Positions 1-43,751 of a DNA stretch of 43,751 bases are shown piece by piece. Source of the DNA: an uncultured Bacteroidia bacterium (GTDB lineage: Bacteria > Bacteroidota > Bacteroidia > J057 > CALLMJ01); assembly GCA_938006875.1 (NCBI GenBank), contig CALLMJ010000117.1, positions 1-43,751 of the forward strand, written 5' to 3'. The translations under genes and the position numbers were made by a program. Numbering within the stretch: position 1 is the stretch's first letter; each line of letters starts with the position of its first letter. The notes beneath the pieces were generated by a model that was not told where the DNA came from, made no database searches, and saw nothing but the letters and a program-made list of their open reading frames with translations.

Positions 1-128
1 TCTTGTGGTTTAAATTCTATTTTTTCGATGTTTTCATCTAAAAGAGTACTAATAAAAAACTTAGCAACTCTTTCATTTTCCATTAATCTTTTAAATACTA
101 CGTCATAAATCGGATTAGCAATAACCAT
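1..128 (-). CDS. N-terminal fragment of PD-(D/E)XK nuclease / Rpn-like (transposase_31-type) family protein, truncated by window edge
   Basis: Reverse-strand ATG at 128 reads MVIANPIYDVVFKRLMENERVAKFFISTLLDENIEKIEFKPQ..., resembling the N-terminus of a common Bacteroidota PD-(D/E)XK/Rpn-like family. TATTTTTG (-7-like) lies on the minus strand at 140..133. Confidence 0.6.
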   Translation of the reverse strand, partial: MVIANPIYDVVFKRLMENERVAKFFISTLLDENIEKIEFKPQ

Positions 129-338
129 AACGCAAAAATAAGGGAAATTTCGTAACTTTATACCTTAACACACTTAGCACATTTTCAATAAACTCAACAA
201 AAAAAACTAAAAATTTATTCTTTATCATTGCATAATTCACAATGTTATTAAACCCTAAAAATAAACTTTGAAAAAAAATATTGAAATTTTAAGAATTATA
301 ATTTAAATTTGCGTGTTTAATAAGTTAAAAAGGATTGT

Positions 339-6044: not shown

Positions 6045-6280
6045 ATATATCTCCTTTATTCATAAAATACAAATGATTTTGTTTTATTTTTGAATTAAAC
6101 ACTTCTTAATTATTAGAGATTTTGAACAGAATTTTCGTTTAGGCTATAACTAAATGTTTTTAAATTAATTATGTAAGAGATATCGACATTTTGAAACCTA
6201 TTTATAAAGGTTTATAGTTTGATTTATCTAAATGTTGAAAATTTATTTTCTGATGTTTAGTCAGGATTATTTTAAGGATT

Positions 6281-6512
6281 GGGCATTGAGCAGTCGCAGC
6301 CGTACCTGTGGTCATTGAGTAAGCGTAGCCGTACTTGTGGTCATTGAGTAGGCATAGCCGTACCGAAATGACCATTTTTCGTAGAAAAGCGGTTGTTTCG
6401 GTATGTTCGCTTCACTTATCGAATATATACCTAATGTTTTAAATTAACTTATTAATCGATAACAATTAACTGGTAAACCATTTTTAATGAATTGTTCATA
6501 AACTCAATTAAT
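6281..6512. repeat. interspersed repeat family B, copy B1
   Basis: Three ~29-bp units (ggtcattgagtaagcgtagccgtac..), a palindromic core accgaaatgacc...ggttgtttcggt, and an AT-rich tail. The same modules occur in the same order, inverted, at 39645..39852, including an exact 27-nt match (6432..6458 = reverse complement of 39698..39724). Confidence 0.88.
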
Positions 6513-6870: not shown

Positions 6871-8102
6871 CCGAAAATTAATTTAAAGTAAAACATGGGA
6901 TTTTTTAATTGGTTTCTTAATTCCAAATCTTCAAACATACAACTTATTGCATGTTTAAGGGTAGAATTAGAATTAGCTTTATTCACAACTAAATTAAACA
7001 AAAACGGATATTTTAGCAAAGATTGTAAAACTCTACTTAATCTCAATTCAGACCAAAGTCTTTTATAAACCTTATCATCATATTGATTTAGAAATTGAGC
7101 AGAAAAATTTTGGTTTTGTATAGCTAATTGAGCAGTATGTGCAGCAAACATTCCAGACATCAAAGCGTTACCAATCCCTTCGCCTGTGAAAGGATCAATT
7201 AAAGAAGCGGCGTCTCCAATTAGTAAAAAATGATTACCAGAAATTTTTCTTTTTTTAGAACCTAATGGCAAACCAAAACCTTTCATTCCATCTATGATTT
7301 TTGCTTCTTTAAAACGTTCTTTGAGAAAAGGGTGTTCATGAATACATTGGTTCATAGCTTTTTTTAAGTCTATTTTCTTTTTTTTAATCACATCAGAGCG
7401 CATACCTACTCCAACATTCGCTTGACCATTGGGCAAAGGAAAAATCCATAAATAGCCGGGTAAAAATTCTTTTAAAAAAATTAATTCAATAAAATTTTCT
7501 GAATCTAAATCTTTAACACCTTCATAATAAGTTCTTATTCCAGCACAATAATGCTCTGGTTCCATTTTAATATTCCCAAATTCTTTAGCAAATCGTGAAT
7601 AAGCACCATCAGCTGCAATAATTAATTGGGGATTTAAGGTTTTACCGTTATTCAAATGAATTTCCCAACCATTGTTAGTTCTCTGGACTTTTTCATAACT
7701 AGTATTTTCTATAATGTTAATCAATGAATTATTCTGAATTTCTCGAAATAAAAAATAATCAAAATCTATTCTTTTACTTAAAAATCCGGGTACAGTTTTT
7801 TGACTATTATTTTTTTGACTTTTAAATGGTACTCTTAAAGATTTTAAGTTGGGAGCAACAAAATTTACACCCCAAGAACCAATTTGAAAGTCTTTTTCTG
7901 CAAATTGTTGAACGATTTCAGGGTCATATTTTTTTAAAACTTCTACAACTTTTCCGCTTAAAGCATCACCACAAATTTTGTCCCTTGGAAATTGTGATTT
8001 TTCAATAATTGTACAAGGAATTTGAAGTTGAGCTAAAAATAATGCAGTCATGCAGCCTCCGGGTCCTGCACCTAAAATCAAAATTTCTTCAGAAGAATTC
8101 AT
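6867..8102 (-). CDS. NAD(P)/FAD-dependent oxidoreductase, geranylgeranyl reductase family
   Basis: ILGAGPGGCMTALFLAQ Rossmann motif, FPRDKICGDALSGKV, LLIGDAASLIDPFTGEGIGNALMSG. Confidence 0.87.
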   Translation of the reverse strand: MNSSEEILILGAGPGGCMTALFLAQLQIPCTIIEKSQFPRDKICGDALSGKVVEVLKKYDPEIVQQFAEKDFQIGSWGVNFVAPNLKSLRVPFKSQKNNSQKTVPGFLSKRIDFDYFLFREIQNNSLINIIENTSYEKVQRTNNGWEIHLNNGKTLNPQLIIAADGAYSRFAKEFGNIKMEPEHYCAGIRTYYEGVKDLDSENFIELIFLKEFLPGYLWIFPLPNGQANVGVGMRSDVIKKKKIDLKKAMNQCIHEHPFLKERFKEAKIIDGMKGFGLPLGSKKRKISGNHFLLIGDAASLIDPFTGEGIGNALMSGMFAAHTAQLAIQNQNFSAQFLNQYDDKVYKRLWSELRLSRVLQSLLKYPFLFNLVVNKANSNSTLKHAISCMFEDLELRNQLKNPMFYFKLIFG

Positions 8103-8256
8103 TATTGCAAAATTAATAGTTTTTATAGAGCAAAAAGAATATTATCCTTTATAAATCTCAATCCATAAATTTTTATTTCATTCAATTGATTTCTTGCAAA
8201 ACGAATTATTTCATTAAATAAAATTCTAAATTTTTGTATATTTACTTTATTATTCT

Positions 8257-39628: not shown

Positions 39629-39644
39629 GATTTTTAAAAAATTT

Positions 39645-39852
39645 TATTAGAGTTTATGAACAGTTAATTAAAAATTGATTTATCAGTTGATTATTAGCGA
39701 TTAATAAGTTAATTTAAAACATTAAGTATTTGCGGTTGTTAAGTAGTGAGCGGTGCGAATGTACCGAAACGACCGATTTTCACCGAAACATGGTCATTTC
39801 GGTACGGCTACGCCTTCTCAATGACCTTCGGTACGGCTACGCCTACTCAATG
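39645..39852. repeat. interspersed repeat family B, copy B2 (inverted relative to B1)
   Basis: AT-rich tail gagtttatgaacagttaattaaaaattg...cgattaataagttaatttaaaacatta, palindromic core gtaccgaaacgacc...ggtcatttcggtac, then two ~29-bp units ggtacggctacgcc(t)actcaatga. Confidence 0.88.
39761..39804. repeat. inverted-repeat core of repeat B2
   Basis: GTACCGAAACGACC (39761..39774) pairs with GGTCATTTCGGTAC (39791..39804), one mismatch/wobble. Confidence 0.85.
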
Positions 39853-39904
39853 ATACTCATCATATCAAGAGAAATTTTTTCTTTTCATGAACTGAATTAT
39901 GCAC

Positions 39905-42738: not shown

Positions 42739-43269
42739 GTGAAAATTCTTTCTGGAAAATTTAAGGGCAAAAGTATTCCATTTGATAACAATTTACCTTC
42801 TAAACCTACTAAAAATATAGCAAAAGAAGCAATTTTCAATTATTTAAATTCTGAAGGTAACTGGTCAGATATTATTTTTTTAGATTTATTTGCAGGAACT
42901 GGTAACATAGGTTTAGAAGCTATAAGCAGAGGTTCAAAATGGGTTTATTTTGTAGATAATTCTAAAAAATGCCAAAAATTTATTCAGCAAATTCTTAAAG
43001 ATTGGAATATTGAAAACGCCAACTTCCTTTTACAAGATTACCAAGATTTTATTAAAAAAAATTCAGTTTTATTTGATGTTATTTTTTTAGATCCACCCTA
43101 TCAGAAAGTACCATTACATATTTTGATACCCAGTTTCTATGAATTTTTAAAACCCAATGGTATCATGATTTTAGAACATCTTTCCTCAGACTCTTTCCAT
43201 AATTTTAAAGGTTTTCAAGAAAAAAAAGTTTATGGATTATCTGCATTTTCTATTTTCAAAAAAATATAA
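42739..43269 (+). CDS. rsmD: 16S rRNA (guanine966-N2)-methyltransferase RsmD
   Basis: MKILSGKFKGKSIPF, RPT-like KPTKNIAKEAIFNYL, FLDLFAGTGNIGLEAISRGSKWVYFVDNS, VIFLDPPYQK; GTG start. Confidence 0.93.
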   Translation: MKILSGKFKGKSIPFDNNLPSKPTKNIAKEAIFNYLNSEGNWSDIIFLDLFAGTGNIGLEAISRGSKWVYFVDNSKKCQKFIQQILKDWNIENANFLLQDYQDFIKKNSVLFDVIFLDPPYQKVPLHILIPSFYEFLKPNGIMILEHLSSDSFHNFKGFQEKKVYGLSAFSIFKKI

Positions 43270-43428: not shown

Positions 43429-43751
43429 ATGAAAGAAAACAAATTTAAAACTGGCTCTGAATGGCGCTTATGGGATTTACACGTTCATACCCCATTTTCT
43501 CATTTGTCAAACGGATTTAAAAATGATTGGGATAACTATGTTAAGGAACTCTTCAAAAGAGCTATCGAAAACAATGTTTCTGCGTTTGGTATAACCGACT
43601 ACTTTACTATAATTAAGCTTTACAGGCAGGTTATCATCGTAACACACAATGCAAACATTGTTGTAAACGCAGATGCCGAGCAGGTTATCGTTGCGGAAAA
43701 TAATGAAGAAAGATTGTCGTATAGAAGCGGCTCATTAGAAAATCCAGATAT
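43429..43751 (+). pseudogene. Internally deleted TrlF-like PHP/AAA ATPase (N-terminal PHP start fused in frame to C-terminal ATPase segment); runs off window
   Basis: Translation MKENKFKTGSEWRLWDLHVHTPFSHLSNGFKNDWDNYVKELFKRAIENNVSAFGITDYFTI (PHP start) followed immediately by IKLYRQVIIVTHNANIVVNADAEQVIVAENNEERLSYRSGSLENPD (ATPase H-loop/C-terminal region). Not in the supplied ORF track because it is open at the edge. Confidence 0.7.

Follow-up and report, generated by a model that had tools for sequence, protein, structure and literature searches.

A TrlF-family gene reduced to its two ends, probably by internal deletion, with a putative assembly fork at the join

The window, by which is meant the whole stretch of 43,751 nucleotides analysed here, closes on a reading frame in which the N-terminus of a TrlF protein is fused in frame with a C-terminal TrlF segment that carries the H-loop (Table 1). 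Judged from its motifs and from the relatives of its two sides, this frame is probably an internally deleted, dead TrlF gene, an intact or otherwise different allele presumably being present elsewhere in the sample. The finding in itself is ordinary; an assembly fork appears to sit exactly at the TrlF join.

Table 1. Features of the window that bear on the TrlF-like frame
Feature	Position	Strand	Evidence
TrlF N-terminus fused in frame with the TrlF C-terminal H-loop segment; ORF of 107 codons that reaches the contig end	43429..43749	+	Frame call, NF045780 profile
N half: TrlF/PHP opening with the DLHVH and GITDY motifs	43429..43610	+	Profile, motifs, nucleotide similarity to G642
C half: H-loop THNANI onward; exactly 141 nt, the terminal k-mer of the contig	43611..43751	+	Match to L012, overlap measurement
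Point where the gene's two ends meet, with ~817 profile positions missing between them	43610..43611	+	Profile, similarity to L012, L013, L015 and G642
RsmD-type methyltransferase (PF03602), host chromosomal gene, left neighbour	42739..43269	+	PF03602, synteny
Left terminal 141-mer of contig C117, shared base for base with the start of C54; the two contigs part at base 142, the mark of the assembler's fork overlap	1..141	.	Contig-end comparison

Full-length TrlF consists of an N-terminal PHP (phosphoesterase-type) domain and an SMC-like ATPase, and the two halves of the window frame, scanned separately, both match the TrlF profile NF045780 (TrlF_fam_ATP, 944 positions): residues 1-61 give 75.6 bits (E 3.7e-21) over profile positions 2-54, and residues 62-107 give 79.2 bits (E 3e-22) over positions 872-919. 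The original prediction, which had recognised a PHP start and the H-loop end of an ATPase of the TrlF type, is thereby borne out. The Pfam match of the N half to PHP lies below threshold, and the frame as a whole scores 144.6 bits, under the curated whole-protein cut-off of 350 bits; the intact relatives L013 and L015 reach 481 and 503 bits, respectively. The motif set of intact TrlF comprises DLHxH, GxTDY (or similar), GGRGxGKS (Walker A), SVGQR (signature), DQPEDDLDN (Walker B) and THNAN (H-loop). From this set the window frame retains only the PHP opening (DLHVH at residue 16, GITDY at residue 54) and the H-loop (THNAN at residue 72); in a motif check, Walker A, the signature and Walker B were each present in L013, L014 and L015 and absent from the window frame. 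With these three motifs lost along with the greater part of the PHP domain, the frame would therefore not encode a working TrlF enzyme, and the remnant in the window is most likely dead. A promoter scan returned matches no commoner than in shuffles.

Between the PHP opening and the end of the ATPase, the absence of a large middle section, already proposed from the letters of the sequence, can be put at roughly 2.15-2.5 kb when the missing profile positions are gauged on the full-length L013 and L015. The join itself, earlier placed near 43609..43617, is sharpened to 43610|43611, or at most one base away, by four comparisons: nucleotide similarity starts at 43611 for L015 and for L012, a locus of a Cytophagales MAG (CALHUI010000007.1) whose positions 8021-8161 equal the C half in 140 of 141 nucleotides (mismatch at 43614), and at 43612 for L013, and it stops at 43610 for the TrlF start of G642, a genome of the same phylum. 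The uninterrupted G642 start reads ...GITDYFTIDGYKKLKTEY... The ATG at 43429 opens the frame, which meets no stop before the window ends, in agreement with the 107 codons said to stay open through the join; the frame stops there because contig C117 does, and not at a chosen window edge.

The window is indeed the entire contig (G000:C117:1-43751) of a draft genome in 185 contigs that is 97% complete, and the nature of its right end can be deduced from the way in which contigs of this genome overlap. In a comparison that covered the starts of 58 other contigs, 39 of these in full or to 20 kb, the ends of C1/C53 and of C38/C52 proved to overlap by exactly 141 bases, and the starts of C54 and C117 to be the same over exactly 141 bases before they diverge (Table 1). 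Because three end pairs share exactly 141 bases, the final k of the assembler is taken as 141; MEGAHIT has been run with this k-max, and may be the assembler here. Where two sequences merge in an assembly with overlap k, a contig ends k bases past its last private base. As 43751 - 141 = 43610, the graph thus predicts a merge at 43610|43611, the same place as the join found by homology. The genome bin holds no second copy of the 43611-43751 tail, and an exact search of viral contigs did not return it either. Searched for the missing TrlF middle or for the next contig, the genome yielded no further TrlF piece that passed the cut-off, nor a near copy of the methyltransferase found after the TrlF of L012; an intact parent allele was not found.

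These observations would be accounted for as follows. A TrlF-family gene may have lost some 2.1-2.5 kb internally, so that codon 61 became joined to the codon that immediately precedes the H-loop segment; with this stretch would have gone the rest of the PHP domain together with the Walker A, signature and Walker B motifs of the ATPase. Elsewhere in the sample, the same 141-mer would follow a different upstream base or different upstream DNA in a second sequence, presumably an allele that is either intact or broken in another way. The assembly graph would then merge at the join and the contig would end one k-mer (141 nt) later, that is at 43751, because its tail is a putative assembly node common to the two sequences. 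The true remnant would run past 43751, with about 26 more codons expected from L012.

The main alternative is an assembly or library artefact, in which the N half derives from an intact TrlF gene of this genome and was misconnected to the C half of a TrlF gene that possibly belongs to another organism; although rather unlikely, it draws on the fact that the C half is, in its whole length, the terminal k-mer at a contig end, and on its near identity to a different MAG and its higher G+C content than the N half. A real deletion is nonetheless favoured because the two sides of the join correspond to the start and the end of one family, with order, orientation and frame all kept, which is very improbable as a chance union, and because no common word exists at the join to cause a misjoin in the graph: immediately upstream of 43611 the window and L012 do not agree, nor, just downstream of 43610, do the window and the TrlF of G642. 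Moreover, were the join a minority chimera, the native continuation ought to survive as a rival branch; had the N half also led into an intact gene at comparable depth, the resulting fork would have ended the contig at 43610, so that the join is likely to be the main form in the population. A real deletion is also backed by the existence of a comparable one in finished Leuconostoc plasmids, described below. Among the three options first offered for the join, a precise deletion is the best supported, with an assembly-edge component contributed by the 141-base overlap, while a minimised protein is not upheld. As a caution of wider use, a striking in-frame fusion at the end of a contig may be, on one side, wholly the overlap k-mer of the assembler; measuring the length of contig-end overlaps exposes such terminal k-mer tails immediately.

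What weakens the deletion reading is base composition, because the C half is richer in G+C than the N half (39.4% and 33.9%, for a genome mean of 30.4%) and nearly matches a fragment that lies within the 46.6%-GC locus L012. The difference between the halves amounts to 5.5 points in favour of the C half; in AT-rich relatives, the C half averages 1.9 points lower. The count of 26 G or C in 60 at 43621-43680, from which acquired DNA had been suggested, is correct, but a G+C shift from 30.4% to 39.4% is a weak sign of acquisition, 5.8% of the 141-nt stretches of this genome being as GC-rich as the C half. The unlike composition of the halves could also reflect a recombinant remnant, with halves from two TrlF lineages that transfer and deletion had united, and the closest relatives do differ, L015 and G642 for the N half, L012 and L013 for the C half. 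Such an origin is improbable, as full-length TrlF pairs with a C identity of 0.85-0.90 average an N identity of 0.70 (sd 0.19), and the window, at 0.60 with L013, falls inside this spread; the N and C identities to relatives neither prove nor exclude one parent gene.

It is highly improbable that the frame encodes a functional minimised protein derived from TrlF, such as a small binding or regulatory protein. The frame is open through the join and retains PHP motifs I-II and the H-loop, but an open frame across the join is expected by chance in one case in three, all nucleotide-binding motifs other than the H-loop are gone, the true 3' end of the frame lies outside the contig, the comparable Leuconostoc form has broken frames, and no in-frame short TrlF relative was found among 80 genome loci, 358 plasmid records, 1 phage record, 4 viral loci and hundreds of genomes. 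With Walker A, the signature and Walker B missing and no second in-frame short form in these searches, the genuinely minimised protein entertained by the original prediction finds no support. It is very improbable that the collapsed frame is expressed to some use, for instance as a small protein that retains the PHP opening and the H-loop end and modulates an intact TrlF, and that internal collapse is recurrent and selected in the family.

On its left, the TrlF frame adjoins the core gene rsmD; its right side lies past the contig end. Conserved synteny with G001, a genome of the same genus, reaches to 43262; past rsmD the gene order differs, and G001 therefore does not show what lies to the right. 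Elsewhere in the window, a dispersed repeat, ~210 nt long and intergenic, occurs at 6200-6511 and at 39641-39860, the two copies being about 80% identical, and an ORF called at 39730 starts within a copy of it. The repeat is present in 12-14 of the sampled contigs, often close to contig ends, and C2 contains a 79-nt part of it at intervals of ~111 nt.

Of 80 relatives compared, 65 are intact and 4 are broken at places remote from contig edges; the other 11 lie too close to an edge for a verdict. L012 (7923-8240) is a 5'-truncated remnant that holds the last ~101 codons of TrlF, at 34% G+C inside its 46.6% G+C locus. It is not exactly the partner of the window tail but shows that such tails circulate; an isolate paper for its MAG was not found in the literature. 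G246, a two-contig genome, carries an N-terminal TrlF remnant of 117 codons (L119 3503-3856), in which just the first ~110 codons of the gene are kept, some 1.8 kb upstream of a gene for a resolvase-type recombinase. In Leuconostoc mesenteroides SRCM103460, two finished plasmids (NZ_CP035748.1 and NZ_CP035750.1) carry a TrlF start fused to a tail running from Walker B to the C-terminus; about 35 N-terminal codons are kept and, relative to a Levilactobacillus TrlF (L265), 2,150 bp are lost with a 4-nt overlap at the join. The pseudogene is identical on both plasmids (L105 1998-2480 on the first, L266 on the second), and an EcoRI-type restriction system adjoins it. In G642, one contig ends ~80-90 codons into a TrlF gene (L274 723-991, G642:C82) that itself follows right after a probable HsdS end; TrlF may be a frequent site of contig breaks. 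The sole phage match, at 3404-6109 of L104 (Microcystis phage Mwe-JY31, PP438423.1), is a gene of 2.7 kb, annotated as hypothetical, that has a TrlF-like PHP start.

The intact gene may well have a role in defence. The TrlF of L013 is flanked by an HsdS-like gene and hsdR, one on each side, which supports such a role, and similar restriction-modification neighbours are suggested by inspection at L015, L018 and L022; the C-terminal kinship to anti-phage Ppl points the same way. The name TrlF matches the temperature-restricting locus trlRFG of Photorhabdus, in which the mutations found were mostly in trlG and none in trlF (PMC7554251). A literature search returned no paper on a collapsed TrlF, and no solved structure was found by sequence to resemble a full-length relative. 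Should the deletion be genuine, it would be one more case, beside the scattered evidence from the Leuconostoc plasmids, L012 and G246, of TrlF genes that are gained and then gutted, as is expected for costly defence genes.

In comparison with known systems, the window frame stands closest to the TrlF family itself, both ends of the frame matching both ends of NF045780, but it is without ~817 of the 944 positions, Walker A and Walker B included. The C-terminal ATPase end of anti-phage Ppl (NF042955 / PDLC02208) is also related to the C half; the match is far weaker, 33 bits, and the N half gives none. The tail remnant of L012 has 140 of 141 nucleotides in common with the C half; unlike the window, it is a TrlF end only, with no PHP start, and is directly followed by a gene for an adenine-specific DNA methyltransferase. 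The Leuconostoc plasmid gene comes from a lineage unrelated to that of the window and, like the window frame, joins a PHP opening straight to the C-terminal end through an internal deletion; its breaks fall further out, the N-terminal part ending after about codon 35 and the tail starting from Walker B, and its frame is broken.
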